A stretch of DNA of 64,000 nt from Flavobacterium sharifuzzamanii (lineage in GTDB: Bacteria > Bacteroidota > Bacteroidia > Flavobacteriales > Flavobacteriaceae): positions 434,001 through 498,000 of the forward strand of contig NZ_QJGZ01000040.1 in NCBI RefSeq assembly GCF_003254585.1, in the 5' to 3' direction. Shown here piece by piece: positions 10,923 to 42,965 of the stretch (its first letter is position 1; the number at the start of each line of letters is the position of its first letter). A model generated the notes under the pieces. It saw nothing but the letters and a program-made list of their open reading frames with translations. It had not been told where the DNA came from and made no database searches. The translations under genes were made by a program, and so were the position numbers.

Positions 10923-11352
10923 TTCTTTATCTTTTTACTGTTGTATGTAATGTAAAGATAATCAATTGTTTATGAAGGATGTGTAATGGTTTGGTTTGTA
11001 TAGTAAGGGGACCCTTACTGAACAATTTACAAACCATTTTATGAATGATTTAAAGAAATTGGCTTATTTTTCGATTGATTTGTAAGATAATTATTTTAAG
11101 TTTTTATTACAGAGCGGTTTGTATGTATCGTAAGGGTTAAATGTTAGAATGCGTTAAATAATTCCATGCATTTTTATTTCTACTAAAGAATTTTTTTGAT
11201 GGGAATATGGTTGCATGGCCTGATAAATTATTAGAGATAAAACTAAAATAATATTTTTAGAAAATGCACATCAAAATTTGTTGATGATAGAATTTCAACC
11301 TATCAAAAAATTCAAAAAACAGATTTTATTATTGTTTTGGATCTAATATAAG
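10923..11352. other. Intergenic stretch holding repeat copy A
   Basis: No gene is visible. The stretch contains repeat copy A (10985-11140); the remaining 200 bases are AT-rich and hold no clear signal. Confidence 0.6.
10985..11140. repeat. Dispersed repeat, copy A
   Basis: Bases 11011-11140 match 42639-42770 (copy D) very closely, the first 50 bases being identical, and match 34666-34797 (copy C) less closely. The ends are inverted: ACCCTTAC...ACAAACC at the left and GGTTTGTA...GTAAGGGT at the right. In this copy an extra inverted half (GGTTTGTATAGTAAGGG, 10993-11009) lies to the left, giving a near-palindrome AGTAAGGG-GA-CCCTTACT. The similarity fades after 11155. Confidence 0.8.
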
Positions 11353-12660
11353 CTATTGATTTTTATAATGCTTTAAATTGACAGCGTTAAAAGAATATGA
11401 AATCATTAAATAGCTCCAAAAAGCAAGTTTATTGTCATCTTGTATTTTTGGCAAATATTCCATAGCGTTTGTTGATTTATAAAAAGAAAAGGCGTAATTA
11501 ATTTCCAGTTCTTTGGCAGGAAAGTATTTCACAGAAAGATCACTTTCATATCCAAGAAACTTTGTCATTTTTTGACCCAAATTATTTAGAAGAGGATATT
11601 GAGTATAAAAAAGGTGAAAATCAGAACGAAGAGATAGTTTACTATTTATGGGAATTACAGTAAATAGATAAGGATTTACTAAACCTTTTCCGTTAACGTC
11701 GGTAGGAAAACGGGTAAAGACATTCATATTTCCATTGAACTTCCATGTCACGCCATATAAGACATCAAAATCTCCGGAATTATTAGGTTGTATATTAGGA
11801 CTGCTGCCACTAATTATTTCAGCACCTAAACGCCAAGTAGATTTTAAGAAAGACGATTTAACCTCAGGTTGAAAATAGTAAGATAATAATTTTTGACCTT
11901 TTGAATTATGCCCAAACTGTAAATATGAATTTAAAGTATAATACCATTGTTTTGTTTTAAATTCTATTCTTCCACCTGTTGTTGCACGAGTATACAATTT
12001 CCCTGAAATTGTGTTTTCTAAAAAATCAATAGCATTCAATGAGGTAAATAAAAATCCATGATTGTTATTGTAGCTGAGATTATTTACAAGCAGATACTTA
12101 TATTTATTCGCTGCGACAGGAGAGTAGGCTGGCTCAAATTCAGTACCGTAGTTTCTGGTAAATAAAAAGAAAAAATCATTAGAGAAATATTTTGAGGATT
12201 TCATTATCCGTATTCCTTCATGAGATCTACCTTGTTGTGCCCAGGGTGCATCAGAGAATAATCTGCCATTATCTAATAAAACACTTTGCCTTCCCAATCG
12301 TATATTTAAAGATTTGAACTTAGTCTCAAAATACAATTGATAAAAATTAATACTTCCTACTTTCGAAGCGTTGTTGTTTTCATCCCAAAGATGAATTTCC
12401 TGTAAATCTGATTTTATAAGCCATTTTTCTCTAGCATATAGCATAGAAAATCTGTTTCTCTGGGTGATATAAAAGTAAGGATCAATTGAATCGTTGGGAG
12501 GAAGGTTGTAATTTGAAGTGTATTCGGCTCTTGGTCTTATTTCAATATTCATTAAGAACTGCCGGGAAAAGCTATCCTTCTGTTGTGCAGATAATTGAAG
12601 AATAAATAAAAGAAAGGAAAGTAGTAATAGATTTTTTTTTGCAGGGCTTTTTATAATCAT
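11353..12660 (-). CDS. Alginate-export-type outer-membrane porin
   Basis: A 435-residue predicted outer-membrane beta-barrel with a signal peptide (about residues 1-25, ending LSAQQ). It has the hallmarks of the alginate_exp/AlgE-like porin family: an early RPRAEYTSNY strand, ITQRNRFSMLYAREKW, and RLGRQSVLLDNGRLF followed by HEGIRI. Alternating hydrophobic strands run to the last residues. The substrate is unknown; in Bacteroidetes such porins are often linked to small organic molecules and not to alginate. It is divergent from the TetR gene, and a half-site of the TetR operator (GTATATTT, 12703-12710) lies in its upstream region, so it may be under TetR control. Confidence 0.8.
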   Translation of the reverse strand: MIIKSPAKKNLLLLSFLLFILQLSAQQKDSFSRQFLMNIEIRPRAEYTSNYNLPPNDSIDPYFYITQRNRFSMLYAREKWLIKSDLQEIHLWDENNNASKVGSINFYQLYFETKFKSLNIRLGRQSVLLDNGRLFSDAPWAQQGRSHEGIRIMKSSKYFSNDFFFLFTRNYGTEFEPAYSPVAANKYKYLLVNNLSYNNNHGFLFTSLNAIDFLENTISGKLYTRATTGGRIEFKTKQWYYTLNSYLQFGHNSKGQKLLSYYFQPEVKSSFLKSTWRLGAEIISGSSPNIQPNNSGDFDVLYGVTWKFNGNMNVFTRFPTDVNGKGLVNPYLFTVIPINSKLSLRSDFHLFYTQYPLLNNLGQKMTKFLGYESDLSVKYFPAKELEINYAFSFYKSTNAMEYLPKIQDDNKLAFWSYLMISYSFNAVNLKHYKNQ

Positions 12661-12784
12661 ACTTCTTTTGTCCTATAGATTTAGTGTATAAAAGTAATAA
12701 TAGTATATTTATTTACAATACAATCAGGTAAGTTTGATAAAAATTATTTATTTAAAAAAAAAAACATTTCTATTCCGTATTTCT

Positions 12785-12806
12785 AAATATACTTTTTAGT
12801 ATATTT
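12785..12806. promoter_or_regulatory. TetR operator over its own promoter
   Basis: Arms AAATATAC (12785-12792) and GTATATTT (12799-12806) flank a 6-base centre. The right arm overlaps a TAnnTTTG -7 box (TATATTTG, 12800-12807) placed 18 bases before the tetR start, so binding would block transcription. The same half-sites recur before the SDR gene. Confidence 0.75.
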
Positions 12807-12825
12807 GTTCCCTAATTAATTATTA

Positions 12826-13416
12826 ATGCTTAGTAAGGCCGAAAGAACAAAACAATTTATACTTGAAACTGCGGTACCTCTTTATAATGAAAAAGGTATT
12901 TCGGGAGTTAATATCGATGATATCCTGGAAGCTACAAAACTTACAAAGGGCTGCCTTTATGGTCATTTTGAAAATAAAGAAGATTTATCTGAACAGGTGA
13001 TTGATTTGTCCTTGAAAATGGTTTCAGACAGAATTAGAGCTGCAGTTTATCAGGCAAAAACAATTAAAGGCAAAGTGTTTGCATTTTTGGATTTTTATAA
13101 AGACCCAATTGAAACCTATATTTCCGGTGGTTGCCCGATACTTAATACTGCCGTCGAAGCAGATGATAATTATCCGCTTATAAAAGAAAAAGTTGCCAAA
13201 GTATTTAGAAGTGGTCAGCAGGAATTAGCAGGTTTACTTCAGGAAGGAATTAATATTGGGGAGTTTTCCACTAAACTTGATCCTATTGTCTTTGCTTTTA
13301 AATTAGTCGCATCGGTTGAAGGTGGTATCGTAATGTGCAGAGTTATGGGGACAGCAAAACCAATGCAGGGACTTATCAAAAGCTTAAAGTCTGAATTAGA
13401 ACAATATAAAATATAA
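12826..13416 (+). CDS. TetR-family transcriptional repressor
   Basis: A 196-residue repressor with an N-terminal TetR helix-turn-helix (KAERTKQFILETAVPLYNEK to TKGCLYGHFENKEDL, residues 3-50) and a ligand-binding C-terminal domain containing GGCPILNTAVEADD, a motif of the subgroup that controls nearby oxidoreductases. Palindromic operators lie over its own promoter and again in front of the following SDR/oxidoreductase pair, so it probably represses itself and that operon until an inducer binds. The inducer is unknown; the target enzymes suggest a quinone, carbonyl or other electrophile. Confidence 0.88.
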   Translation: MLSKAERTKQFILETAVPLYNEKGISGVNIDDILEATKLTKGCLYGHFENKEDLSEQVIDLSLKMVSDRIRAAVYQAKTIKGKVFAFLDFYKDPIETYISGGCPILNTAVEADDNYPLIKEKVAKVFRSGQQELAGLLQEGINIGEFSTKLDPIVFAFKLVASVEGGIVMCRVMGTAKPMQGLIKSLKSELEQYKI

Positions 13417-13431
13417 TTTTTTTTTGAGTAA

Positions 13432-13477
13432 AAATATACTAAAAAGTATATCGCGAAATATACTAAAAAGTCTAAAA
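13432..13477. promoter_or_regulatory. Tandem TetR operators before the SDR operon
   Basis: AAATATAC-6-GTATATCG (13432-13453) and AAATATAC-6-GTCTAAAA (13456-13477) repeat the tetR operator with the centre TAAAAA. They are 24 bases apart centre to centre, roughly two helical turns, and lie 40-85 bases before the SDR start. Confidence 0.7.
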
Positions 13478-13516
13478 AGGTGAAGTTTATAAAAATAATT
13501 CTTTAAATAAAGTATA

Positions 13517-14284
13517 ATGGAGATACAAGGCAAAACAATATTAATAACCGGCGGAGCATCCGGCATTGGACTTGAAGCCGCAAAACAGTTCTTGGCTATC
13601 GGTGCTAAAGTAATCGTCACAGGAAGGAGTCGTGCCAAACTTGATGCTGTTAAGAAAGCAAACCCTGCTATCATAACAATTCAAAGTGATGTCGCCAATA
13701 ATGAAGAGGTAAAATTTCTTTTTAACAAAATACAAGAACTGGGCGGTATCGATATTTTGTATAATAATGCGGCCGTACTGGTACCACCGTCAAATTTTGG
13801 TATTGCCAATGACAAACATTCCGAAGGTGCTGCCTACGAAATGGAAGTGAATTATATTGGGGTTATAAGACTTAATAACATGTTTATGGACATGCTGCAA
13901 TCAAGAAAAGAAGCAGCGATAATAAATACGACATCAATATTGAGCCAAGCTCCGTCATTAATTGAAGCTACTTATTCTTCTTCTAAAACTGCATTGGCTT
14001 TTTATACTGTGTCACTTCGAGAACATTTGAAAATTATAGGAAGTAATTTGAAAATATTTGAACTGGTCCCGCCGCTTGTAGCTACAGAAATGACTGTAGA
14101 CCGGAAAGATAAAAAAATATCCGTTGAAGAAATGGTCAGAGGCCTTATCGTCGGGCTTCAAAAAGAACATTATACAATACGTGTGGGCGATGCAAAACTG
14201 TTTAGCCTGATAAACAGGTTTTTCCCAAAAACCGCCTTTAAATTAATTAATCCCAAGAAAAGCCACCAACTTTTAAAAAACTAA
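13517..14284 (+). CDS. Short-chain dehydrogenase/reductase
   Basis: A 255-residue NAD(P)-dependent SDR with the cofactor motif TGGASGIG (residues 11-18), NNAA after strand beta-4, and the catalytic Tyr153-Lys157 pair in YSSSK. The overall form is like DltE/YbbO-type SDRs acting on carbonyl compounds. The gene follows two TetR operators and is one base from the next gene, an MDR oxidoreductase, so the two form an operon. Substrate unknown. NNAA replaces the more frequent NNAG, which is common in this subgroup. Confidence 0.88.
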   Translation: MEIQGKTILITGGASGIGLEAAKQFLAIGAKVIVTGRSRAKLDAVKKANPAIITIQSDVANNEEVKFLFNKIQELGGIDILYNNAAVLVPPSNFGIANDKHSEGAAYEMEVNYIGVIRLNNMFMDMLQSRKEAAIINTTSILSQAPSLIEATYSSSKTALAFYTVSLREHLKIIGSNLKIFELVPPLVATEMTVDRKDKKISVEEMVRGLIVGLQKEHYTIRVGDAKLFSLINRFFPKTAFKLINPKKSHQLLKN

Positions 14285-14285
14285 T

Positions 14286-15293
14286 ATGAAAGCATTTATC
14301 ATAAATAAATATACTAAAGGGGCTCTTCAGCTTGCAGATGTTCCAACTCCTGTTGTAGGTAACAGCGATGTTTTGATTGAGGTCTATTCAGCAGGGGTTA
14401 ATCTTCTGGATTCAAAAATTAAAACTGGAGAATTTAAATTGATTCTTCCCTATAAACTGCCTATGATTCTGGGGCATGATGTATCAGGTATCGTTGCGAA
14501 AGTGGGAAAAAATGTCAAGAAATTTAAAGTTGGGGACAAGGTATATTCCCGTCCTGCAGATTACCATGTAGGAACCTTTGCTGAGTATATCTCTGTAAAT
14601 GAGAAAGATGTGGCAATTAAGCCTAAAAATATTTCAATGAACCAGGCCGCTTCTATTCCATTGGTGGCACTAACGGCATGGCAGGCGCTGGTTGAGCGTG
14701 CAGATTTAAAAAATGGGCAGAAAGTATTCATACAAGCCGGTTCAGGAGGTGTGGGGACAGTAGCTATACAGCTGGCCAAATATCTTGGTGCACTCGTTGC
14801 CACAACTGCCAGTAATAAGAGCTTTGAATTGCTTAAAAACCTTGGTGCTGATGTACTGATCGATTACAAAACACATGATTTTGAACATATACTTAAAGAT
14901 TATGATGCTGTATTAAACAGCCAAGATCAAAAAACACTTGAAAAATCATTAAACATTTTAAAGCCAGGCGGTAAGATCATTTCTATTTCAGGACCGCCGA
15001 CACCTGAATTTGCTAAAGAGATGGTTTTGCCATGGTATGTTAAAATGATTACAATGCTGCTTAGTTTTGGCATAAGAAATAAAGCTCAAAAGAAACATGT
15101 GAACTTTAGTTTCCTATTTATGAGGGCTGAAGGGAGTCAGTTACAGGAAATTACAAAACTTATTGAAGCTGAAATTATTGAGCCAATAGTAGATAAAGTA
15201 TTTGCTTTTGAACAAACAAATGAAGCGCTGGAATATGTAGAAGGCGGCCGTGCAAAAGGTAAAGTTGTAATACAGATAAAGAGTGAGAAATAG
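14286..15293 (+). CDS. NADP-dependent quinone oxidoreductase-like MDR enzyme
   Basis: A 335-residue medium-chain dehydrogenase/reductase of the zinc-free quinone oxidoreductase type. The N-terminal GroES-like domain carries GHDVSGIVAKVG and GDKVYSRP; the Rossmann domain has QAGSGGVGTVAIQLAKYLGA near residue 155 and KPGGKIISISGPP. No structural zinc cysteine set is visible. It starts two bases after the SDR stop. Together the SDR and MDR probably reduce reactive carbonyls or quinones under TetR control. Ends with a hairpin terminator at 15308. Confidence 0.9.
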   Translation: MKAFIINKYTKGALQLADVPTPVVGNSDVLIEVYSAGVNLLDSKIKTGEFKLILPYKLPMILGHDVSGIVAKVGKNVKKFKVGDKVYSRPADYHVGTFAEYISVNEKDVAIKPKNISMNQAASIPLVALTAWQALVERADLKNGQKVFIQAGSGGVGTVAIQLAKYLGALVATTASNKSFELLKNLGADVLIDYKTHDFEHILKDYDAVLNSQDQKTLEKSLNILKPGGKIISISGPPTPEFAKEMVLPWYVKMITMLLSFGIRNKAQKKHVNFSFLFMRAEGSQLQEITKLIEAEIIEPIVDKVFAFEQTNEALEYVEGGRAKGKVVIQIKSEK

Positions 15294-15307
15294 TAAATAC
15301 AGGGAGT

Positions 15308-15334
15308 AAAACCTCATTGATTAATGCAGGTTTT
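15308..15334 (+). terminator. Terminator after the oxidoreductase gene
   Basis: AAAACCT (15308-15314) pairs with AGGTTTT (15328-15334), with a further CATT/AATG pairing inside and one bulged base. The T run is short, so it is of moderate strength. Confidence 0.6.
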
Positions 15335-15370
15335 GCTCTCAGGCTATCATAAGTTTTTTAATCGCTTCGA

Positions 15371-16285
15371 ATGCAGAAAATTAGCAAGAGTCCAAATAAT
15401 ACTACTGAGTATCATCTGAATCAATATCAGCAGAATCTGCCAAGGTTTTCTGTGTACGAAATTGATAATTATTTAAAAAGATATGATAAAAAAAGAAGGA
15501 AAGTTCATGCCGAAAAGCACTATCAGATCATTTGGTTTAAAAAGGGGAATGGAAGATATTTCGTTAATTTCAAAGCATACGATGTTGACCAGAATACTCT
15601 TTTCTTTCTCACTAAAGATGATGTTCATTATTTCGACAGGAATACTAATTACATAGGAATCTTGATTCAGTTCAATGAAGAGTTCCTGATTCAGAATAAC
15701 AAGGATATTGCCTTTTTTTCGAAGCACAGCCTTTTGAATAATCACAAACAGCCTGCTTGTTCACTTACCCGAGATGATGCCTTTATTTTAGAAGAATATT
15801 TAAAGCTGATCAAAAATGAATTGAAAGATAAAAATCAAACCAGTCATGAAGAGCTATTAAGGTCTTACCTCAAAGCATTTCTCATTCAGGTTCAGTACAG
15901 ATGGGAAAAAGCAAATCTACATGACGGGCGCCGGATTTTGCCTGAGGATAAAAAGCAGCAGCAATTAATAAAATTTGTTGATCTGGTAGAGGAAAATTAT
16001 AAAAAAGATCTAAAAGTCTCCCAATACGCAGATCTCATGCAGATCTCATCCAAGACATTATCGGGTCTTACCAGTCAATTGTTAGATAAAAGTCCTTCGG
16101 AAATTATTTGTGAAAGGATTGTAGCAGAAGCAAAAAGAATGCTCCTTGATACTAATTACAATATCAGTAAAATTGGCTATTGTCTGGGTTTTGATGATGA
16201 CTCTTATTTTGTAAAATATTTTAAAAAACATACGAGTGTTTCACCTTTGGATTTCAGGAAGTTCAGCTTAAAAGAAATATCTTAA
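15371..16285 (+). CDS. AraC-family transcriptional regulator
   Basis: A 304-residue regulator with an N-terminal cupin-like sensing domain (HYQIIWFKKGNGRYFVNF, about residues 45-130) and a C-terminal AraC double HTH (about 200-300) ending in the typical IGYCLGFDDDSYFVKYFKK and SPLDFRK. It lies 78 bases after the TetR-controlled operon, behind a terminator, so it is probably its own transcript. The target is not known; candidates are the neighbouring envelope genes or oxidoreductases. The inducer cannot be predicted. Confidence 0.9.
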   Translation: MQKISKSPNNTTEYHLNQYQQNLPRFSVYEIDNYLKRYDKKRRKVHAEKHYQIIWFKKGNGRYFVNFKAYDVDQNTLFFLTKDDVHYFDRNTNYIGILIQFNEEFLIQNNKDIAFFSKHSLLNNHKQPACSLTRDDAFILEEYLKLIKNELKDKNQTSHEELLRSYLKAFLIQVQYRWEKANLHDGRRILPEDKKQQQLIKFVDLVEENYKKDLKVSQYADLMQISSKTLSGLTSQLLDKSPSEIICERIVAEAKRMLLDTNYNISKIGYCLGFDDDSYFVKYFKKHTSVSPLDFRKFSLKEIS

Positions 16286-16319
16286 TAATAAGCATTAACC
16301 ACATCTATTAAAGTGAAGA

Positions 16320-17102
16320 TTAAAATCCACTGCTTCCATCATCGACACTAGTTTTATTACGCTTAAACGGCTTAGCAATATTTGAAAAAAAATCATTAAA
16401 TATAAAATTAAGCTGGAATGCATTAACGAGCTGATCAGCTGTTTCTCTGGGCATTACTTCGCGAGAATACGAAGGTTCAATTTGGATATCATTATTAAGA
16501 GATAATCCCAAACCGACAGTGAAGCGGTTGCGGTCAAAAAAATCAGGACCGCTGACAGCACTTTTGGTTTTAAAAAAGACTTCATCAGATGCAAATGCGT
16601 AAATTGGTATTTTATTTATTTTCAAATAATTTATTGGACAAACAGCTTTTACTTGAAATCGAAACCGCTCAACTGCCTCATAATTTGAATTTTCATTCTC
16701 CAGATGCCTGTCCTCAAATCTGGCCCTTAAATTTACTTTAAAACTTTCTTTTGTAAATAAGCTGTAAGTTGCCTGAAGGGCACTTCTGAATTCCGGAGGT
16801 TTTTCCTGATTCAATTCCGGTACATTTTTATTGTGAAAATAAGCGTAAAATATAGACAGCTTCCATCTTGGTGCAGGATAATAGTGAGCCCAGGCTCTTA
16901 AGTATACCTGTGTAATATTATGAAACATATTTGGATCATCAGGTATACTGCTTGAACTTAGACCAGCATCAATTTCAAGTACCCAGTTTTGGCTCAGGTC
17001 TTTAGTAAATGCATATTCATTCCAAAACTGGCTTAAATTATCAGATTGGCTATAAATGGATGAATAAACTAAAATGAGTGCAACCGAGATTTTCTTTCTC
17101 AT
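16320..17102 (-). CDS. DUF2490 family outer-membrane beta-barrel protein
   Basis: A 260-residue predicted outer-membrane barrel with an N-terminal signal peptide (residues 1-19, ending SIYSQS). The body alternates strands such as NWVLEIDAGLSSSS, YLRAWAHYYP and FKVNLRARFEDRH, and includes FRFQVKAVCPIN and NRFTVGLGL as seen in DUF2490 proteins. Function is unknown; these proteins are structurally similar to small porins or barrel lipases. It converges with the AraC gene and has no operon partner. Confidence 0.75.
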   Translation of the reverse strand: MRKKISVALILVYSSIYSQSDNLSQFWNEYAFTKDLSQNWVLEIDAGLSSSSIPDDPNMFHNITQVYLRAWAHYYPAPRWKLSIFYAYFHNKNVPELNQEKPPEFRSALQATYSLFTKESFKVNLRARFEDRHLENENSNYEAVERFRFQVKAVCPINYLKINKIPIYAFASDEVFFKTKSAVSGPDFFDRNRFTVGLGLSLNNDIQIEPSYSREVMPRETADQLVNAFQLNFIFNDFFSNIAKPFKRNKTSVDDGSSGF

Positions 17103-17216
17103 ATTATTATAATAAAATCATTGCAACCATTTTAAAACCGATCTGTAAAATAGACTGATTGAATAGCTTTTATAGATTATATTTTAAAATATGACGTATT
17201 GGTTGCTATTTGAAGA

Positions 17217-17247
17217 TAAAAAAAGAGGCTCCCCAAAGCCTCTTTTA
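17217..17247 (-). terminator. Terminator of the small secreted protein gene
   Basis: AAAGAGGCT (17222-17230) pairs with AGCCTCTTT (17237-17245) around a 6-base loop. An A run at 17217-17221 gives the U tract on the minus strand, just after the stop codon at 17250. Confidence 0.85.
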
Positions 17248-17249
17248 AA

Positions 17250-17720
17250 TTAATGTTTACCATTTCCTTTTCCCTTGCCATTTCCATTATGGTTTCCATT
17301 ATCATGGTGGCTTTTATCTTTATTGCTTCCTTTTCCTGGCTTTTGTCCTATTGTTTTTTGAGGTTTTCCTTTATAGCCCTTTGCATATTTTACTTTATGG
17401 GATTTAAAGCTGTCGTAAGGCCTGTCTCCTCTGTAATCAGTCAGTACTACTTTATATTCGTTATAAAGATCATAGTTTCGATAGGCAGAGGGAAGTGATC
17501 TGGTTCGAACCCATTTTCCGTTATTGAGATAAACATAGTTCGAAGTGCTTACATCGTAATAGGTTTCAAGATCCGGCAGATAATAATAACGGGCATCCGC
17601 ATAACCGGCAGGTCCCCAGGCAGGAGGTGTTCCTATGTTTACATTTACTGATACCTGAGCCTGAACGTAACCAAATGAAAGGAATAATACCCCGATCAAA
17701 AAAAATTTTAAAGTTTTCAT
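17250..17720 (-). CDS. Small secreted protein with basic Gly/Asn/Lys-rich tail
   Basis: A 156-residue exported protein. The start at 17720 gives MKTLKFFLIGVLFLSFG followed by an Ala-Gln cleavage site; the longer reading from 17762 puts 14 polar residues before the signal and is rejected. The mature region has GTPPAWGPAGYADARYYYLP and YVYLNNGKWVR segments, a pattern common in small periplasmic Bacteroidetes proteins, then a tail of about 45 residues made of Lys, Gly, Asn and His (KGKGNGKH). The tail might bind metal or anionic polymer. Function unknown. Confidence 0.75.
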   Translation of the reverse strand: MKTLKFFLIGVLFLSFGYVQAQVSVNVNIGTPPAWGPAGYADARYYYLPDLETYYDVSTSNYVYLNNGKWVRTRSLPSAYRNYDLYNEYKVVLTDYRGDRPYDSFKSHKVKYAKGYKGKPQKTIGQKPGKGSNKDKSHHDNGNHNGNGKGKGNGKH

Positions 17721-17870
17721 GATTTTACTTTTTAATTCATTACTGCATTTGGATAAAAACAATAAACATGCCGTAAATTCATATCCATTATACCTGTTTT
17801 GATTATGTGTTATTTATATTTTATATTGATGCTGATAATATCAGATGTCATATTGGTAGTTCTGGTATAA

Positions 17871-18644
17871 GGTTCTGTCGCATCTGGGAATAACTTTTAT
17901 CTTTAGAATTTTAAACCGATTAAAAGATGAATACTAAAGGTCATTGTTATCCAAAATACATAATTCTTCAGGCAGTATATTTCAAGCTAAGATTTACACT
18001 TAGTTACCGTGATGTTGAAGAACTAATGAAGATTAGAGGAGTCATTGTGGATCATGCGACGATTCAGCGTTGGGTTTACAAGTTTGCACCTTTGCTTGAG
18101 GCAGAAATGAAGAAGAGAAAAGGCAGAGTGGTGGAGAGTTGGAGATTGGATGAGACCTACATCAAAGTAAAAGGTATTTGGTGTTATTTATATAGGGCAG
18201 TAGATAAATTAGGCAATACGGTTGATTTTCTTTTGACCAGAAAAAGACAAAGAATGAGTGCGCAGTCATTTCTAATTAAAGCAATTAGTAATAACTACAG
18301 ACCAAGAGTAGTAAACATTGATAAAAGCGGTTCTAATACTGCCGCTATCAAAGTCTATAACAAACGTTCATTCACAAAGATTAAAATCCGGCAGTGTAAA
18401 TATCTCAACAATATTGTCGAACAGAACCATCGATTTATAAAATGGAGGATACAAAATGGGTTAGGCTTTAAAAGTTTTGAATCGGCAAGACGAACATTGA
18501 GCGGAATTGAAGTTGTGCATATGCTGAGAAAGAATCAAATGGTTAGACCAGGGATAACTATGTTTAAATCATTCTGTAAATTGGCGGGCTAACTTTTAAA
18601 TTACTTCAATTTTTATATTTGATTCTGACAGATGCGACAGAACC
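17871..18644 (+). mobile_element. IS6-family insertion sequence
   Basis: A 774-bp element with perfect 16-bp terminal inverted repeats GGTTCTGTCGCATCTG at 17871-17886 and, inverted, at 18629-18644. It encodes one intact transposase. The flanking octamers (17863-17870 TGGTATAA and 18645-18652 TAAAACAT) differ, so there is no target duplication, as expected after recombination or an adjacent deletion. Its right end lies exactly inside dispersed repeat copy B. Confidence 0.92.
17927..18592 (+). CDS. IS6-family transposase (DDE)
   Basis: A 221-residue transposase of the IS6/IS26 group. The N-terminal part has the family helix-turn-helix (TLSYRDVEELMKIRGV then DHATIQRWVYKFAP), followed by the DDE catalytic triad: Asp75 in RLDETYIKVKG, Asp132 in NIDKSG, Glu165 in IVEQNHR. 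The downstream Lys/Arg-rich segment RFIKWRIQNGLGFKSFESA is typical. Length is normal for the family and there are no frameshifts, so the element may still be active, moving by cointegrate formation. Confidence 0.93.
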   Translation: MNTKGHCYPKYIILQAVYFKLRFTLSYRDVEELMKIRGVIVDHATIQRWVYKFAPLLEAEMKKRKGRVVESWRLDETYIKVKGIWCYLYRAVDKLGNTVDFLLTRKRQRMSAQSFLIKAISNNYRPRVVNIDKSGSNTAAIKVYNKRSFTKIKIRQCKYLNNIVEQNHRFIKWRIQNGLGFKSFESARRTLSGIEVVHMLRKNQMVRPGITMFKSFCKLAG

Positions 18645-18858
18645 TAAAACATTATGTATATTTAAATTTATTAAGATGTAATAGCTTTTTACAAAATTCT
18701 TGAAAATAAAATTTGGTACTATGTAAAGAGAACGGGTTAGTTTTTTGTAAAATTATATAATAATTTGGAGATTATTCAAATCAAAATTTGGTCGGATATT
18801 AGAGTTTTTAAACCGCTTTAACCTAATTAGAAGATAATTATTTATGCATTTTATTGCA
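18645..18858. repeat. Dispersed repeat, copy B (left part removed by the IS)
   Basis: From TAAAACAT directly after the IS end, the sequence follows copy D (42781-42982) and copy C (34810-35000): for instance ATTTAAATTTATTAAG, TTTTTACAAAATTCTTGAAA and ATTCAAATCAAAATTTGGT. The left two thirds of the repeat, including the palindromic core, are missing, and the sequence left of the IS does not match it. Confidence 0.85.
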
Positions 18859-28365: not shown

Positions 28366-28380
28366 CAAAAGATTAAAAAA

Positions 28381-30072: not shown

Positions 30073-30091
30073 TCTTTAAAAAATCAGCAAT

Positions 30092-31489: not shown

Positions 31490-31509
31490 ATCACTTTGAA
31501 TTTAATAAA

Positions 31510-33066: not shown

Positions 33067-33089
33067 GAACAATAATAAAATATTTTAGA

Positions 33090-35000: not shown

Positions 35001-35286
35001 AATTTTGTTAGACATTTGATTTGTTAGTTTTCTGTACAAATAAAAATATTTAATTTAACTCATTAATTGTCGCTCGATTGGGGTTAAAAATTGATTTATT
35101 TCTTTTCATTCAATTTTTGTTTGCATATCCAAATATCAATGTTCCTCATATTACAAGCAAATTACTTTCGGACTCGTTTTTTACAATTAAAATTTCAACA
35201 ACAGAGATTATGTTATAACTTCAGTTGATTAGGTTACTTCTGCTTTGCATTTAAGACGGAACTTTGTATCATCAAAAAGAGATATT

Positions 35287-36003: not shown

Positions 36004-36015
36004 AACTATAACACA

Positions 36016-37065
36016 GTGAAAAAGATAAAAATCATATTTTTTGTAGTTGTCCTTGGTGTAATTCTACTTTTTACTCCCGGCTTCTTTCTAAGCAATGCCG
36101 TCATTAACACTGCATCTGCAAATTCAAATCTGAAAGCAATAAATAACGATTCAATAGCTAAAAACGATACCATTATTGAATTGGCGGGTCATAAACTATC
36201 TGTTTTAAAAGGCGGTATGTTTGACAGATTCCATTCCAATTCCCTCCTTTCAGTAGTAGCACAGGAACGACCTGATATAGATTTAAGCTGGTTCAAAACC
36301 CTTCATAAAGAAAAAAAGGATGTTGGCTTTATCACATATTCGCCAAACTTCTATTATAGCAATAGTAGTATTACAGCTATTTATACAGCAGATATGAGCA
36401 AAATAAAAGAACTGCTTCCTACGGAAGTAAACGAATTGGTCAAACCGATTTCTTATACACCCGGTAGAGGATTGATCGCTATTACTTCCTATGCTTACCA
36501 TTTTTGTGATAATGATTCATACAATGAACTCTCTATCTCTATTGTAACCACTAAACCAAATAAAAGTAATTGGGGACTGATTTCTTTAATGGGTGAAGTA
36601 AATGACAAAAGTCTATGGGGTTATGTGTTGAAATTGCCTGTTAATACCGAATTAGCAAGAGTTCGTGGAAAAGTTGGATATAATTTACCAAAATGGTTAA
36701 TCCCAATTGATTATAATACTGATGGAAGCAATGTAACTTTCACTTATTACGATGAAAAAGGGAATTTAGATTTTTCAATGACAGGTAAAAAATTAGAGGT
36801 TACCAATTCAATACCTGAAATTAACCGTTCGAATTTTATCAATCTTAATACAAAAGGCCAGTTAACACACGGTTACAGTGATGTAAGAGCAATAAAAAAA
36901 GCAACAAGCAAAAAGGCTGAAGATATTCAATTTAATCTTTCAGATGGTCCGTTATCAGCCTTTATCAAATCATTGGAACTTAAAAAATTAGTTCGCTATG
37001 ATTACCAACCGGAATTTCAAGCAGCTTTATACACACCTGAATTAGTGACTGAAAACAATAAATAA
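36016..37065 (+). CDS. Membrane-anchored acetoacetate-decarboxylase-like protein
   Basis: A 349-residue protein starting with GTG. An N-terminal hydrophobic anchor (about residues 5-30) precedes an acetoacetate-decarboxylase-like fold, shown by SITAIYTADMSKIKELLP, the YHFCDNDSYNELSISIVT strand pair and the LPKWLIPIDY segment. The active-site Lys of true decarboxylases could not be placed with certainty, so activity is unproven. It starts 12 bases after the DJ-1 gene and is in the same operon. It may bind or transform small keto acids or lipids at the membrane. Confidence 0.65.
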   Translation: MKKIKIIFFVVVLGVILLFTPGFFLSNAVINTASANSNLKAINNDSIAKNDTIIELAGHKLSVLKGGMFDRFHSNSLLSVVAQERPDIDLSWFKTLHKEKKDVGFITYSPNFYYSNSSITAIYTADMSKIKELLPTEVNELVKPISYTPGRGLIAITSYAYHFCDNDSYNELSISIVTTKPNKSNWGLISLMGEVNDKSLWGYVLKLPVNTELARVRGKVGYNLPKWLIPIDYNTDGSNVTFTYYDEKGNLDFSMTGKKLEVTNSIPEINRSNFINLNTKGQLTHGYSDVRAIKKATSKKAEDIQFNLSDGPLSAFIKSLELKKLVRYDYQPEFQAALYTPELVTENNK

Positions 37066-37092
37066 TTCAACTCATTTTTAAAAATTAAGGAA

Positions 37093-38454
37093 ATGGAATT
37101 CGCTAAAATATTTCAATCGCAGAAGGAGTTCTTCAACACTCATCAAACAAAAGATGTGGCGTTTAGAAAGGAAACTTTACTAAAGTTGAAAGATATTTTG
37201 AAAGGAAACGAACAACAACTATACGATGCGATTTACAAAGATTTTCGCAAAGGTACTTTCGATACTTTTTTAACTGAACTTAATTTAGTTCATAAAGAAA
37301 TCAACTTTTTTTTGAAAAATTTAGATAAGCTTGCTAGACCCAAAAAAGTAAAAACGGCTCTCAGTTTACAACCCGGAAGCAGTCATATTTATGCAGACCC
37401 TTTGGGCGTAACTTTGGTAATTGGGGCGTGGAACTATCCTTATCAATTGACTTTAGTTCCTTTGATTACATCCATTGCAGCCGGAAATACTTGTGTTGTA
37501 AAACCAAGTGAATTACCCGAAAATACAATGCGCCTTTTGGCGGAATTAATCAATACTAATTTCCCTTCCAATTATTTGTATGTTGCTGAAGGCGGCATAC
37601 CGGAAACAACCGAGTTATTGAAATTGCGGTGGAACAAAATTTTCTTTACAGGAAGTCCAAAAGTAGGGCAGATTGTGTATGAAGCAGCAGCGAAAAACTT
37701 GGTCCCCGTAACGTTAGAATTAGGAGGTAAATCGCCTGCTATTGTAACAAAGACAGCCAATTTAGAAGTGGCCGCAAAACGTATCGTTTGGGGTAAATTT
37801 TTAAACGGTGGTCAAACTTGTATAGCACCTGATTATTTACTGGTTGAAGAATCCGTCAAAGACAAATTTTTGCAATTGTTAAAAGATAAAATTGAAGAAA
37901 CTGGATATATAGATGGTGCAGAGCACTATACAAGTATAATCAATAAAAGAAATTATGACAGAATATTAAGTCTGATTACTCCTGGTAAAATATTTTGTGG
38001 AGGGAAACATAATGAAGAAATGCTTTACATTGAGCCCACAGTCCTGACCAATGTAACGTATAATGATGCTGTCATGCAGGAAGAAATTTTTGGTCCGGTT
38101 TTGCCAGTGGTTTCCTTTAAAAATTATGATGAAGCTCTTGAAAAAATCATTAATGGAGAAAAACCTTTGGCAGCCTATCTTTTTACAAATAATGATGATG
38201 AGAAAGATAAACTACTAAACAGAGTTTCCTTTGGTGGTGGTTGCATCAATGATACGTTGATGCAGATTACAAGTGATTATCTTCCTTTTGGCGGAGTTGG
38301 AAATTCCGGGATTGGTCATTATCACGGTGAATTCGGATTTTTGACATTCTCACATCAAAAATCAGTAATAGAGAAAACAACTTGGGGCGAGCCCGATTGG
38401 AAATATCCGCCTTATTCAGATAAAAAAATGAAGTGGCTAAAAAGGGTAATGTAA
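37093..38454 (+). CDS. NAD(P)-dependent aldehyde dehydrogenase, class 3 type
   Basis: A 453-residue aldehyde dehydrogenase of the short class 3 / fatty-aldehyde type. Visible are the cofactor and catalytic motifs PWNYP-like AWNYPYQLTL, FTGSPKVG, VTLELGGKSP with the base Glu, and nucleophile Cys243 in GGQTC. The C-terminal LPFGGVGNSGIGHYHG is typical of the class. It oxidises aldehydes to acids. It lies 27 bases after the previous gene in the same direction, supporting an aldehyde-detoxifying operon. Confidence 0.93.
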   Translation: MEFAKIFQSQKEFFNTHQTKDVAFRKETLLKLKDILKGNEQQLYDAIYKDFRKGTFDTFLTELNLVHKEINFFLKNLDKLARPKKVKTALSLQPGSSHIYADPLGVTLVIGAWNYPYQLTLVPLITSIAAGNTCVVKPSELPENTMRLLAELINTNFPSNYLYVAEGGIPETTELLKLRWNKIFFTGSPKVGQIVYEAAAKNLVPVTLELGGKSPAIVTKTANLEVAAKRIVWGKFLNGGQTCIAPDYLLVEESVKDKFLQLLKDKIEETGYIDGAEHYTSIINKRNYDRILSLITPGKIFCGGKHNEEMLYIEPTVLTNVTYNDAVMQEEIFGPVLPVVSFKNYDEALEKIINGEKPLAAYLFTNNDDEKDKLLNRVSFGGGCINDTLMQITSDYLPFGGVGNSGIGHYHGEFGFLTFSHQKSVIEKTTWGEPDWKYPPYSDKKMKWLKRVM

Positions 38455-38542
38455 CAGAGATAATGTTACAACAACCCATAACAGAGTTACGTCTATCACT
38501 ATGATAATACTGAACTTTGTAGTAGAATTTAAAACTAAAAAA

Positions 38543-39475
38543 ATGCAAGTAATATTAGGAGCCAACGGTCAAATTGGCGAAGAATTAGCAAGAGAATTGA
38601 AGAGAAATTATACTTCAGAGATAAGAATCGTAAGCAGAGAAGCAAAGAAAGTTAATGATACAGATATAGTATTTTCTGCTGATTTATCTAATAAAAAAAG
38701 TGCTATTGAAGCTGTAAAAGGAAGTGAGATTGCTTATTTTACTTTAGGGCTTCCTATTAGTTCTGCCTTATGGGAAAAACAATTTCCTCTCATTCTACGA
38801 AATGTCATTGATGCCTGTAAAATCAACGGAACAAAATTGGTTTTTTTTGACAATACTTATATGTACCCACAGGATGGTCGTTTGCTCACTGAAGAAACCC
38901 TTTTCGATCCAGTTGGAAGAAAAGGAAAAGTAAGAAGAGAAATGGCTGAAATGGTTTTGAAAGAAATAGAATCAGGTGAACTCGAAGCGGTTATTTGTCG
39001 TGCACCAGAATTTTATGGACCTGGTAAAACACAGAGTGTAACCAATACTTTGATTTTTAATAGTATAAAGGAAAATAAAAAATTGAAGGTGCCTTTGAGA
39101 GATGATAAATTGAGAAGTTTAATTTGGACGCCAGATGCAAGTAGGGCAACAGCTTTAATTGGTAATACACCTGATGCTTTCGGTCAAACTTGGCATTTGC
39201 CGATTGATGATAACATGTTAAATTATAATCAGTTTATCAATCTGGCATCAAAAATTTATGGAAAAAAATTGCAATATTCAGTTGTACCAAAATTTGTTTT
39301 TAAAATTGGCGCAAGATTTAATGAAAGAGTGAAAGAATTGCAGGAATTACTTCCAAGATATAAATATGATAATTTATTCGACGATTCAAAGTTTAAAAAG
39401 CGTTTTCCTGAATTTCAGGTGACAACATACAAACAAGGCATCGAACAAATTAAGAATGAAAAATTATTAAAATAA
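38543..39475 (+). CDS. NAD(P)-binding epimerase/dehydratase-like protein
   Basis: A 310-residue extended-SDR protein with the Rossmann motif GANGQIGEELARE at the N terminus, VFFDNTYMYP near residue 100 and RAPEFYGPGKT, as in sugar-nucleotide epimerases and NmrA-like reductases. The usual YxxxK pair is not evident, since the Tyr in TYMYP is not followed by the standard Lys, so the reaction is uncertain. The start at 38543 begins the Rossmann strand; the earlier reading from 38501 adds 14 residues. GAACTTTG at about 38512 resembles a -7 box, so it may have its own promoter. Confidence 0.8.
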   Translation: MQVILGANGQIGEELARELKRNYTSEIRIVSREAKKVNDTDIVFSADLSNKKSAIEAVKGSEIAYFTLGLPISSALWEKQFPLILRNVIDACKINGTKLVFFDNTYMYPQDGRLLTEETLFDPVGRKGKVRREMAEMVLKEIESGELEAVICRAPEFYGPGKTQSVTNTLIFNSIKENKKLKVPLRDDKLRSLIWTPDASRATALIGNTPDAFGQTWHLPIDDNMLNYNQFINLASKIYGKKLQYSVVPKFVFKIGARFNERVKELQELLPRYKYDNLFDDSKFKKRFPEFQVTTYKQGIEQIKNEKLLK

Positions 39476-39492
39476 AAAATTGTAACTTAGTG

Positions 39493-40428
39493 ATGTATAA
39501 GTCAGAATTTCAACAAATGAAAACTCCTTCAAAAGTTTCATCAATAAGTGCATTACATCAATTTTTAGGATTAAAAAGCCCTTCTAATCCGTTGATCAGT
39601 GTATTTAATTTTGATGACGTAAAGTTGGAGCCTGAAACAATTTTAAGCACCATAACAACTGATTTTTATGTGGTTGCTCTTAAAAAAGAGTGTGCAGGAG
39701 GCAAATGTAAATATGGCCAGCAATATTATGATTTTGATGAGGGAATAATGTACTTTATAGCTCCGCATCAAGTATTACAGTTTGAAGATGTTCTTCTTAA
39801 TGGTGTTAAAGGATTTGTTGCGGTAATACATCCCGATTTTTTGCAGGGATACAACTTGGCTGCCGTAGTTAGAGACTATGGCTACTTTTCATATTCAACC
39901 AGTGAAGCTTTATTTCTATCTGAAAAGGAAGAAAAATCGATAATGGACATAATTGAAAATATCAGTAGTGAGATTGATGCCAACATGGATTCATTTACTC
40001 AGGATTTATTAGTGTCTAATATCGATTTGCTTCTGAAGTATTGCAATCGTTTTTACAACCGTCAGTTTTTGACAAGAAAAAAAGCCAATAACGATTTACT
40101 TAGTAAATTGGAAAATGTACTTGATAGTTATTTCAAAAATGACAAATTGGAGAAAGATGGCATTCCTACGGTTCAATATGTTGCTAACGAATTACACCTA
40201 AGTCCTAATTATTTAAGCGATATGTTAAGAGTTCACACAGGACAAACAACCCAGCAGCATATTCAGAATAGAATTATCGAAAAATCAAAAGAACTGCTCT
40301 CTACCACTTCTTTGTCAGTTTCTGAAATTGCTTATCATTTAGGTTTTGAACACCCTCAGTCTTTTCACCGCTTGTTTAAAAACAGAACCTCTGTTTCGCC
40401 TTTAGAGTTCAGACAATCATTTAATTAA
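39493..40428 (+). CDS. AraC-family transcriptional regulator of the stress cluster
   Basis: A 311-residue regulator: N-terminal cupin-like sensing region (about 50-130), helical linker and a C-terminal AraC HTH pair (about 215-310) with YVANELHLSPNYLSDMLR and SEIAYHLGFEHPQSFHRLFK. Cys residues in KKECAGGKCKYG (near residue 70) could make it redox- or electrophile-sensitive; this is inference. It is placed between the epimerase-like and nitroreductase genes and probably controls the cluster. ATG at 39493 is preferred to the adjacent GTG at 39490. Confidence 0.9.
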   Translation: MYKSEFQQMKTPSKVSSISALHQFLGLKSPSNPLISVFNFDDVKLEPETILSTITTDFYVVALKKECAGGKCKYGQQYYDFDEGIMYFIAPHQVLQFEDVLLNGVKGFVAVIHPDFLQGYNLAAVVRDYGYFSYSTSEALFLSEKEEKSIMDIIENISSEIDANMDSFTQDLLVSNIDLLLKYCNRFYNRQFLTRKKANNDLLSKLENVLDSYFKNDKLEKDGIPTVQYVANELHLSPNYLSDMLRVHTGQTTQQHIQNRIIEKSKELLSTTSLSVSEIAYHLGFEHPQSFHRLFKNRTSVSPLEFRQSFN

Positions 40429-40445
40429 TGCTATTTAAAATAACG

Positions 40446-41174
40446 ATGAATTTAACTGAAATATTAAATTTTAGACGTTCCGTTCGGGTTTATGATAAAG
40501 AAAAACCTATTGATGAAGAAAAGGTAAAAGAATGCTTAGAATTGGCAACTTTGGCTCCAAATAGTTCCAATATGCAATTATGGGAGTTTCATCATATAAC
40601 AAAACCAGAATTATTAAAACAAGTATCTAAGGCTTGTCTAGACCAAACTGCAACTTCAACAGCTTCACAAATTGTAATTTTTGTAACCAGAAGAGATTTA
40701 TTTCGAAAGAGAGCGAAATTTGTTTTAGATTTTGAAAAAGGGAATATTCGCCGGAATAGCCCGCAAGAACGTCAAGAGAAAAGAATTAAGGATCGTGAAT
40801 TATACTATGGTAAAATAATGCCTTTACTCTATTCGCGTTTTTTTGGGCTACTTGGAATTTTCAGGATAATTTTAACAAAGATTATTGGATTATTCAGGAC
40901 TATTACAAGAGAAGTATCTGAGAATGATATGAGAGTAGTTGTTCATAAATCATGTGCTTTGGCAGCTCAAACTTTTATGATTGCAATGGCTAATGAAGGG
41001 TATGATACCTGCCCTTTAGAAGGTTTTGACAGTAAAGTTTTAAAGGGCATTTTAAAATTGCCTCAAAGTGCCGAAATTAATATGGTAGTTTCATGTGGAA
41101 TTAGAAAAGAAAATGAAGGCATCTGGGGAGAAAGATACAGAGTTCCTTTTGAAGAAGTATATATAAGAAATTAA
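40446..41174 (+). CDS. Nitroreductase-family flavoprotein
   Basis: A 242-residue FMN-dependent NAD(P)H oxidoreductase. The N-terminal LNFRRSVRVYDKE and LATLAPNSSNMQLWEF segments form the FMN phosphate site, and MANEGYDTCPLEGFD lies near residue 190. An insert of about 40 basic and hydrophobic residues (ERQEKRIKDRELYYGK to FRTITREV) is longer than in typical nitroreductases. Substrates may be nitroaromatics, quinones or enones. The start at 40446 is favoured because homology begins there; the reading from 40428 overlaps the AraC stop. Confidence 0.85.
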   Translation: MNLTEILNFRRSVRVYDKEKPIDEEKVKECLELATLAPNSSNMQLWEFHHITKPELLKQVSKACLDQTATSTASQIVIFVTRRDLFRKRAKFVLDFEKGNIRRNSPQERQEKRIKDRELYYGKIMPLLYSRFFGLLGIFRIILTKIIGLFRTITREVSENDMRVVVHKSCALAAQTFMIAMANEGYDTCPLEGFDSKVLKGILKLPQSAEINMVVSCGIRKENEGIWGERYRVPFEEVYIRN

Positions 41175-41350
41175 TTTTCAAATATATATTTCAACCAGAG
41201 ATTTGGTTACACACTTATTTGATTCAGTTACACAATCTTGCCAATTTATCAGGAAATTTGTTAGTGATAAGTTTTATCAAAATCTAAGTCAAGAATAAAA
41301 ATTACTTAGAGCACTTTGTTTAAAAATATTAATCATTAAAATTTACTATT

Positions 41351-42331
41351 ATGGCACAACCAATTCCAGCAGAAAAAGACCCTCAAATCCTCTTACAAAT
41401 TAGAGATTTTTTAAATGCTCTAAATAACAGTGGTGGCAGACCATTGGAAACAATGACGCCTCAAGACGCAAGACAAGTACTGATAGATGCTCAAAAGTCA
41501 GTAGAATTTGATTATTCAGATATTGTTGAATCCGAAAGAGAAATTACACAAGATGGTTATACAGTAAATATTCATATTGTAAAACCTGCCGATGCAGTTT
41601 CTGAAAAACTACCAGTATTTATGTTTACACATGGTGGTGGATGGATATTAGGGGATTATCCTACCCACAGGAGATTGGTAAGGGACTTAGTCGTAAATAG
41701 TGGGGCAGCAGCAGTTTTTACAGACTATACACCATCGCCTGAAGCTAAATATCCAACCGCTATTAATCAAATTTATGCGGCTACAAAATGGGTTTCAGAA
41801 AATGGAGACCAGATAGGAGTAGATGGTAAAAATATGGCGGCCGCCGGAAACAGCGTTGGCGGAAATATGACTGCTGTACTTTGTCTTATGGCAAAAGATA
41901 AAGGTGGCCCTGAAATAAAATTCCAATTACTTTTATGGCCAGTAACAGATGCTGATTTTACACGTGAATCTTGGCAAAAATATGCTGAAGGCAGATTCTT
42001 AACAGCAAGCTTAATGAAATGGATGTGGGATAACTATACTACAGATTTAGGGCAAAGAAAAGAATACTATGCTACCCCGTTCAGTGCTTCAATTGAAAAA
42101 TTGAAAGGATTGCCACCTGCATTAGTACAATTAGCCGAGAATGATATTCTTTTTGATGAAGGATTAGCTTATGCCCGTAAGTTAGATGAGGCTGGTGTTC
42201 CTACAACAATTCAAACCTTTAACGGATTTATCCATGATTATGGTTTGTTAAACCCATTAGATCATATTGATGCGGTTAAATTTTCATCTGAACAAGCTGC
42301 CTTGGGCTTAAAAAAGGCTTTATTTAGTTAG
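41351..42331 (+). CDS. Alpha/beta hydrolase, HSL-type esterase
   Basis: A 326-residue esterase of the hormone-sensitive-lipase group (family IV). The oxyanion-hole motif HGGGW, the nucleophile elbow GNSVGG with Ser168, the acid in AENDILFDEG and the catalytic His in GFIHDYG are all present. No signal peptide, so cytoplasmic. It probably hydrolyses short-chain esters. It lies 176 bases after the nitroreductase gene and ends the block, followed by a strong terminator. Confidence 0.92.
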   Translation: MAQPIPAEKDPQILLQIRDFLNALNNSGGRPLETMTPQDARQVLIDAQKSVEFDYSDIVESEREITQDGYTVNIHIVKPADAVSEKLPVFMFTHGGGWILGDYPTHRRLVRDLVVNSGAAAVFTDYTPSPEAKYPTAINQIYAATKWVSENGDQIGVDGKNMAAAGNSVGGNMTAVLCLMAKDKGGPEIKFQLLLWPVTDADFTRESWQKYAEGRFLTASLMKWMWDNYTTDLGQRKEYYATPFSASIEKLKGLPPALVQLAENDILFDEGLAYARKLDEAGVPTTIQTFNGFIHDYGLLNPLDHIDAVKFSSEQAALGLKKALFS

Positions 42332-42349
42332 TAAAACTTAAAAATGTGT

Positions 42350-42385
42350 AGAGGTCAGCTCATAGTTGCTGGCCTCTTTTTTTTT
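42350..42385 (+). terminator. Terminator of the DJ-1/aldehyde cluster
   Basis: AGAGGTCAGC (42350-42359) pairs with GCTGGCCTCT (42368-42377, one G-T pair) and is followed by a run of T. Confidence 0.9.
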
Positions 42386-42420
42386 ATGATTAGTCGGATA
42401 TTTTCCTCAATACTTCTCTT

Positions 42421-42965
42421 CTTCAATTTCCACAAACTTAAATTATTGTTAATATAGAGATAATGGATTTGTTGCAAATGTAGTGTTTACAATGTTTTAC
42501 TGGTGGTTTGTGTCCAGTGGTGTTAACTTGATAGGATTTACAAATCTCTCTTTTTTAGATGTAAAAGATGGTTAAATAGTGTAGAAAGGACATAAAAAAA
42601 ACGCTAAAACCTAAGTTTTAACGTTTTCTTAAGAAGTGACCCTTACTGAACAATTTACAAACCATTTTATGAATGATTTAAAGAAATTAGCCTATTTTCA
42701 AGTGAATTTGTAAGATAATTATTTTAAATTTTTATTTGTAAACGGTTTGTATGTATCGTAAGGGTAAAACGTTAAAAAATGTTAAAACATATGTGTATTT
42801 AAATTTATTAAGACGTAATAGCTTTTTATATAATTCCTGAAAATAAATTTGGTACTGGGTTAGTTTTTAGTAAAATTATATAATAATTTTGAGATTATTC
42901 AAATCAAAATTTGGTCGGGATATTAAACTTTTTAAACCGCTTTAATCTAATTAGTAGATAATTAT
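42421..42965. repeat. Dispersed repeat, copy D
   Basis: The most complete copy: truncated gene start on the minus strand (GTGGAAATTGAAGAAG), iterons of GGTTTGT, a hairpin (42593-42630), the 130-base palindromic core (42639-42770) shared with copies A and C, and a 200-base tail shared with B and C. It closes the DJ-1 block and is followed by the tRNA-like fragment. Confidence 0.85.

Follow-up and report, generated by a model that had tools for sequence, protein, structure and literature searches.

Long repeats between cargo blocks in Flavobacterium as probable hybrid attachment sites of integrative elements that use a large serine recombinase and a tRNA-Arg target

In accretion of the ICESt1 type, conjugative elements (integrative and conjugative elements, ICE) and cis-mobilisable elements (CIME) that share attachment sites are stacked in tandem. 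Composite arrays containing elements without a recombinase are also formed by the staphylococcal cassette chromosome (SCC), whose target is a protein gene, and the usual integrase of CTnDOT is of the tyrosine type. In this work, a window of 64,000 nucleotides from Flavobacterium sharifuzzamanii (contig NZ_QJGZ01000040.1, here C10:434001-498000, of the genome designated G000) was analyzed, in which related long repeats separate cargo blocks; comparison of sequences makes it very probable that these repeats are hybrid attachment sites of Bacteroidota integrative elements whose enzyme is a large serine recombinase (LSR) and whose target is in most cases a tRNA-Arg(ACG) gene. Tandem islands at the 3' end of ssrA have been described in Dehalococcoides (McMurdie 2011, PMC3146451). 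That paper describes a serine recombinase of ~540 amino acids, encoded next to attL by a gene that overlaps attL, reports a divergent C-terminus for this recombinase, and mentions some islands without an integration module; its authors suggested that full function of the recombinase gene may require the circle or a neighbouring island (PMC3146451). The same paper assigns the recombinase of staphylococcal SCC to the serine type, Ccr family (PMC3146451).

The copies of the repeat and the recombinase gene lie at the following positions (window coordinates unless a contig is named).

10985-11299, + strand: copy A, right half (LSR-tail frame plus inverted half-site), from profile and sequence; on its left side a symmetric half-site GGTTTGTATAGTAAGGGG stands in place of the terminator type, from sequence
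18645-18881, + strand: copy B, right half only, the left part missing at the edge of an insertion sequence (IS)
34450-35020, + strand: copy C, full junction with left half, crossover GTGACC at 34663-34668 and right half
42418-43004, + strand: copy D, full junction with left half, crossover GTGACC at 42636-42641 and right half
C10:501785-503419, 3.8 kb beyond the window end: LSR gene for a protein of 544 amino acids with the domains Resolvase (PF00239) and Recombinase (PF07508), running into a further junction

All four repeats named in a preliminary description of this DNA were recovered at their places, both in the sequence and by genome-wide search, with limits that needed some extension (A runs to ~11299 according to the profile, and D to 43004). 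When copy C was used as the query, A-D were the only strong copies in the genome, and two weak matches lay elsewhere, at C10:503253 (within the 3' end of the LSR gene) and at C33:6167. Copies C and D, which had been said to match over about 550 bases, align with 76% identity over ~544 bases; the core of copy A is 87-88% identical to D, and copy B shares 86% identity with the right part of D. The inverted ends of the core (ACCCTTAC..ACAAACC / GGTTTGTA..GTAAGGGT) were found as described, and the hairpin corresponds to a minus-strand fold in C and D (-15.2 and -15.9 kcal/mol, z -5.8 and -5.4) whose stem is followed by a U run. This arrangement before the crossover would be terminator-like, as for a transcript leaving a tRNA on the minus strand. 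A full copy consists of a left half with this stem, the GTGACC crossover and a right half, and internal copies contain a left half, GTGACC or a near variant, and a right half such as CTTACTGAACAATTTACAAACCATTTTATGAATGATTTAAAG. A scored search for a second inverted half-site beat 95% of shuffles in 23 of 63 right halves, the best match lying 100-119 bases from the crossover in 37 of the 63, so that such a site stands out clearly in just a subset. Plasmid and phage collections contained no match to copy D, and Rfam gave a single chance-level match on the window (E 0.87).

The preliminary description had proposed a search of the repeat across Flavobacterium. When 150 genomes were searched with copy D, with four candidates scored per genome, matches appeared in 52, many of them weak, and the strong ones clustered by region. 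Twenty regions from 19 genomes, picked for strong matches or an LSR, were then read. A profile of the repeat gave 78 hits in 17 regions of 17 genomes, the window genome included (two regions had a single hit), once any hit that had a better one less than or equal to 150 bp away, for instance the inverted match of the core to itself, had been removed; the opposite-strand hits that were listed coincided with better ones. Of these 78 hits, 77 run the same way as their region, and the single deviating one is a 22-bit hit in G088; the chance of such uniform regions is ~2 to the power -59, assuming random direction and independent copies. ARAGORN detected tRNA-Arg(ACG) in 16 of the 20 regions, and this gene adjoins the adenine phosphoribosyltransferase gene in all eight regions where the latter was clustered, as well as in the window genome. 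Wherever repeats and tRNA-Arg(ACG) occur in the same region (13/13), the repeats point to the tRNA and the tRNA is on the opposite strand. The profile also hit the tRNA junction itself in eight of these 13 regions; there it covers just the left half (up to profile position 245 or 246), after which come GTGACC and the 3' end of the tRNA. From the tRNA to the last junction found, the arrays occupy 9.6-168.6 kb of the region in G063, 5.2-151.2 kb in G136 and 6.6-141 kb in G083.

The recombinase is linked to tRNA genes in a similar way. A relative of the LSR at E 1e-20 or better is present in 107 of 299 genomes of the genus. Among the best 80 of 315 loci, a tRNA was found near the LSR end (from 400 bases before to 700 after the LSR stop) in 66, always antiparallel and in 64 cases overlapping or abutting; the types in the same best 80 of 315 were Arg-ACG (41), Met (11), Val (4), Pro (4), Leu (4) and Arg-TCG (2), with none at 14 loci. 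The LSR gene ends within the tRNA, its stop codon at one constant offset, in 37 of the 41 Arg-ACG loci of this set (best 80 of 315). The recombinase behind the junctions is probably a serine recombinase that targets a tRNA gene, and the LSR encoded just beyond the window is the likely enzyme acting on the repeats. The loci L148-L227 represent a Bacteroidota LSR family reading antisense into tRNAs for Arg, Met, Val, Pro and Leu, including records from Sphingobacterium, Niabella and Sinomicrobium.

Comparison between genomes places ends of similarity at the junctions more often than chance would. The block between copies C and D occurs in three genomes (G000, G053 and G096) with differing neighbours; the window copy is 98.5% identical over 7.5 kb to those of G053 and G096, and these two share 98.8% identity over 7.8 kb. 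At its downstream end the three sequences are alike up to AAGAAGTGACC and then diverge, continuing into a right half in the window, a helix-turn-helix (HTH) and tyrosine-integrase module in G053, and tRNA-Arg in G096. In blastn, G096 stops matching G000 6 bp beyond the start of GTGACC and G053 45 bp beyond it, the right half of G053 beginning alike; at the upstream end, agreement between G053 and G096 begins within 13 bp of the crossover. Over all region pairs, 115 of 920 ends of similarity (matches of at least 80% and at least 600 bp between regions) fall within 20 bp of a junction, whereas 500 random trials gave a mean of 1.9 and at most 8. When ends near tRNA junctions are left out, the figures are 20 of 787 and, in 1000 random trials, a mean of 1.2 and at most 6; these counts are not independent, since ends were counted from both partners and the genomes are related. 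At their LSR ends, G083 and F. hibernum share a stretch of 1506 bp with 99.9% identity, which stops 11 bp past the junction. Left and right halves combine in many pairings at GTGACC and vary independently. The earlier proposal of a modular island, with blocks added beside a common recombination sequence, is supported by the enrichment of similarity ends at junctions and by the C-D block with its differing neighbours in three genomes.

Conjugation genes accompany at least part of this system. In G063, the element from tRNA-Arg to the nearest detected junction (62.6 kb, ten proteins scanned) encodes an LSR, TraM, TraJ, a TraG ATPase, a MobA/VirD2-type relaxase, a coupling protein and PcfJ. In the window genome, what is left of a similar element lies upstream of the LSR.

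59050-61968: conjugative element remains, with PcfJ, PcfK and a shortened TraJ

G063 has a longer TraJ than this remnant, and also other transfer genes. At 61372/61373, within the traJ-like gene, similarity to G063 and G015 jumps from ~86% to 95-97.5%, and at this point different DNA follows in G063 (~47 kb) and G015 (~56 kb). Over 7.9 kb, the last element of G000 shares 97.5% identity with the tRNA-Arg element of G015 and 95.0% with that of G063. Among 58 junction-to-junction intervals of at least 800 bp (median 8.0 kb), an LSR was detected in nine.

A mechanism can be proposed in which an element circle recombines at or beside GTGACC in the 3' end of the tRNA. The left end of the element, with its terminator-like stem, would then abut the tRNA, and the old tRNA flank would come to lie at the far side, joined to the right end of the element. 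Later insertions at the same tRNA would push earlier ones outward, producing arrays of cargo blocks in the same direction. At least one element carries the LSR and conjugation genes, and others may be mobilised in trans or in cis with a neighbour. The action of this LSR on these sites, excision and transfer, the order of insertion and the unity of the whole stretch from the tRNA to the last junction as one island are what we infer from these comparisons.

The preliminary description had also called the repeats non-coding, which fits the right half less well, as it contains a frame of ~25 codons that shows signs of constraint. This frame continues that of the GTG and of the LSR, and its translation is, for example, MTLTEQFTNHFMNDLKKLAYFQVNL or MTSTGQITTSFLDDLKKLAFYM. 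An anchor was found in 62 of 63 right halves, and in the 54 distinct sequences the ratio of nonsynonymous to synonymous polymorphism (pN/pS) is 0.485 in the LSR frame versus 1.25 and 1.00 in the others, a value reached in 9 of 1000 column shuffles. A set chosen by text pattern, which is biased by that pattern, gave 0.491 (48 of 2000 shuffles), and a set chosen by alignment (56 ungapped of 87 distinct tails) gave 0.422 versus 1.92 and 0.83 (12 of 2000 shuffles). Among these 56 tails, 54 are open in the LSR frame, compared with 0 and 12 in the other frames. The inner part is free of frameshifts in 74 of 88 distinct tails (14 shifted), or in 69 versus 4 of the 73 better-scoring ones, and a whole-tail count that includes edge gaps gave 25 shifted of 87. 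The anchor is in phase with the junction GTG in 49 of 62 cases and out of phase in 13 (a looser count gave 50 of 71, with 16 lacking GTGA); several of the out-of-phase anchors belong, by eye, to a second left-half type that is one base shorter. These data are suggestive of coding constraint on the right half and do not prove it, since the shuffle tests stand at ~0.6-2.4% and the sequences are related.

Among LSR genes that run on into a right half, those of the window genome, F. hibernum, F. oncorhynchi and F. chungbukense keep a shared tail, the F. chungbukense gene having an internal stop; the LSRs of loci L179 and L226 do not keep it. Judged by eye, the nearest junction is in frame with the LSR in G102, G083, G015 and G136, out of frame in G063 and ambiguous in G088; because of the frames in G063 and G088 and the long intervals, the pairing of the tRNA-proximal LSR with its own right half is uncertain. 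It is conceivable, though we hold it only tentatively and think it rather unlikely, that the LSR gene is open-ended, with its C-terminal tail supplied across the crossover, so that the tail reports the integration state and could set integration against excision. At the tRNA, the tail would be tRNA antisense (TSTGFKPVTS-type), whereas in a circle or array it would be read from the right half (TEQFTNHFMNDLKKLAYFQVNL-type), so that every non-autonomous block would bring an LSR tail with it and supply it to the enzyme.

Several observations weigh against attachment sites of LSR elements as the explanation. The regions were picked for strong hits and are thus a non-random sample; four of the 20 lack tRNA-Arg, and copies occur at more than one locus in some genomes (for example G008, G053, G066 and G103), those of G066 and G103 being far apart and on opposite strands. 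In addition, 20 further short pieces, 18 of them with the repeat, yielded no tRNA and no LSR by profile, ARAGORN and tblastn, the only methods applied to them. The window array itself is not at tRNA-Arg: the gene is on contig C2, and no repeat was found in the 60 kb read around it. A synteny end lies within 50 bp at only 16 of 64 internal junctions (63 found by motif plus copy A set by hand), the C-D block of the window is more diverged from G053 and G096 over its first 450 bp, and the block between copies B and C ceases to resemble G063 ~650 bp short of the C crossover, at a distance of ~1.75 kb from the junction in G063. No LSR was detected in 49 of the 58 intervals (two LSR queries; PF00589 was the only other recombinase sought inside blocks), so most intervals would depend for their movement on an enzyme acting in trans, or on a neighbour moving them in cis. 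Finally, junction-to-junction intervals of up to 133 kb may hide decayed junctions, and, because such intervals lack a detected junction, the whole stretch from tRNA to last junction is a single island that we infer rather than one that we observe.

Part of this evidence would also be expected if homologous recombination between long intergenic repeats shuffled the blocks, with no site-specific enzyme acting now. The repeats reach ~570 bases, several similarity breaks lie away from the crossover, among them the differing 5' end of the C-D block in G000, and 48 of the 64 internal junctions show no synteny end within 50 bp. However, the breaks are enriched within 20 bp of one hexamer, where halves join in many combinations, the similarity of the G096 block ends at the tRNA, and LSR genes sit at junctions, which makes this explanation unlikely, if the most serious of the alternatives. 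Far less probable is an integron-like cassette array with attC-type sites and a tyrosine integrase such as that at 9331-10524, an idea encouraged by same-direction repeats between cargo, their imperfect inverted repeat and the tyrosine integrase adjoining copy A. A relative of this integrase is present only in G053 among 15 other regions, a tyrosine integrase beside the array is not a feature of the whole family (PF00589 matches in the array region in G000 and G053 of 16 genomes, and also in F. hibernum), the anchor is a tRNA in 13 regions, and the recombinase at junctions is of the serine type. The least credible alternative is that copies of a miniature inverted-repeat transposable element (MITE) or another non-autonomous transposon lie between the blocks by chance. 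The core of ~130 bases does have inverted ends, and copies are present at several loci in some other genomes; yet there are no strong scattered copies in the window genome, the repeats keep one direction per region and stand at a constant place with respect to tRNA and LSR, and the two halves vary independently of each other. The suggestion of a MITE-like element nested in a longer repeat is not supported, the core being the right half of a junction with a fixed place relative to tRNA and LSR. Copy distribution, the PF00589 search, direction and the tRNA anchor led us to set aside both the MITE and the integron readings in favour of LSR attachment sites.

The surroundings of copy A contain a tyrosine-integrase module and a small open reading frame (ORF).

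8820-10524, + strand: HTH_17 protein and tyrosine integrase (integrase at 9331-10524), beside MnmE
10644-10922, - strand: small divergent ORF, 92 amino acids, without Pfam match

The window array adjoins MnmE (6979-8442) and this integrase. As sharing of the module is limited to G053 among the 15 other regions, the tyrosine integrase was set aside and can probably be ruled out as the enzyme of the array. A search for PF00589 in 16 genomes found matches within the array region read only in G000 and G053, and five of the 16 have just three matches. In G053, the MnmE-side HTH_17/tyrosine-integrase module abuts the array, which, together with a second HTH gene, is inverted relative to the module. 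F. hibernum, which lay outside the 16-genome search, has a tyrosine integrase beside its single junction, with a small ORF between the two and tRNA-Tyr beyond; a similar junction followed by a tyrosine integrase is found in F. hibernum and F. oncorhynchi. By eye, fragments resembling the 3' end of tRNA-Tyr end copies B (18861-18881) and D (42985-43004), agreeing with the F. hibernum tRNA-Tyr at 20 of 21 and 19 of 20 bases, respectively. Past D, the sequence is also similar, by eye, to that separating the tyrosine integrase from tRNA-Tyr in F. hibernum (L126). These fragments and the sequence after D hint at a second, tyrosine-integrase system.

At copy A, 86.5% similarity to G083 and G136 begins near the junction. 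Its symmetric half-site pair looks as if a palindrome of other left halves had recombined. In left halves, for instance at 42490-42555, a palindrome of the kind GGTTTGTA..GTTAAC..TTACAAACC lies ~125 bases before the crossover and resembles, by eye, two facing half-sites. Partial relatives of the small ORF (46-52% identity over 63-64%) are found beside left halves in G114, G063 and G083, which bears on the gene-start remains named in the preliminary description.

The cargo blocks and the insertion sequence of the window are as follows.

11353-17762: A-B cargo, with a below-cut-off Alginate_exp match, TetR, short-chain dehydrogenase/reductase (SDR), zinc dehydrogenase, AraC, DUF2490 and one ORF without match
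17871-18644, + strand: IS6-family insertion sequence abutting copy B, with transposase ORF 17927-18592 (PF13610) and terminal repeats GGTTCTGTCGCATCTG
19171-33995, + strand: B-C cargo, with hybrid two-component regulator, sugar transporter, two GH32, TonB receptor, SusD, DUF4960 and PfkB
35245-42331, + strand: C-D cargo, with DJ-1/PfpI, a protein without Pfam match, aldehyde dehydrogenase, epimerase/NmrA, AraC, nitroreductase and alpha/beta hydrolase

No target duplication was seen by eye at the IS6-family element. The gene at 11353-12660 is also present in cassettes of G083 and G136. Judging from its predicted genes, the B-C cargo is a fructan-type locus, and it is 84.9% similar over 15 kb to G063. 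In the last block, end-joining repair genes encoding Ku and LigD precede a gene for a large catalase (50469-53803 and 54522-56669).

If the repeats are indeed LSR attachment sites, this would explain how Flavobacterium gathers exchangeable metabolic blocks (fructan, aldehyde/redox stress, regulators) beside one tRNA, in arrays spanning up to ~160 kb if the whole stretch is one island, and GTGACC between the halves would be a marker for delimiting blocks. The question raised for Dehalococcoides in 2011, whether the recombinase is complete only in the circle, would become testable in a genus with a genetic system. An LSR family reading into several tRNA genes could also interest those who seek new site-specific integrases.

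No published account of this Flavobacterium system was found among the papers listed in a literature search whose coverage excludes most subscription journals; the part aimed at serine recombinases or integrases and tRNA yielded one paper, on a Riemerella island. By analogy, the closest precedent is that of the Dehalococcoides ssrA islands, of which the present arrays appear to be a variant at tRNA-Arg. Both are arranged in tandem at the 3' end of an RNA gene, with an LSR gene overlapping the attachment site and with blocks lacking a recombinase. The Flavobacterium arrays differ in their tRNA-Arg(ACG) target and their host genus, in the conjugation genes of one element and in repeats of up to ~570 bases. 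Like ICE/CIME accretion, they consist of tandem blocks with direct attachment repeats at one gene (except for the window array, which is not at the tRNA), have a member with recombinase and conjugation genes (the G063 element), and include members that keep both attachment ends without a detected LSR (49 of 58 intervals). Unlike ICESt1, which uses a tyrosine recombinase, they have a serine recombinase and more blocks per array. With SCC they share the serine recombinase, the composite arrays and the recombinase-free elements, whereas their anchor is tRNA-Arg instead of a protein gene and conjugation genes are present. TraG, TraJ and TraM domains (Pfam names), a relaxase and a coupling protein recall CTnDOT-type elements of Bacteroidota, from which the LSR at tRNA-Arg, in place of the usual tyrosine integrase, sets them apart. 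The newer part would be the reading frame of the right half in phase with the LSR gene: where a divergent C-terminus was reported for Dehalococcoides, a shared reading frame appears to continue past the crossover here.

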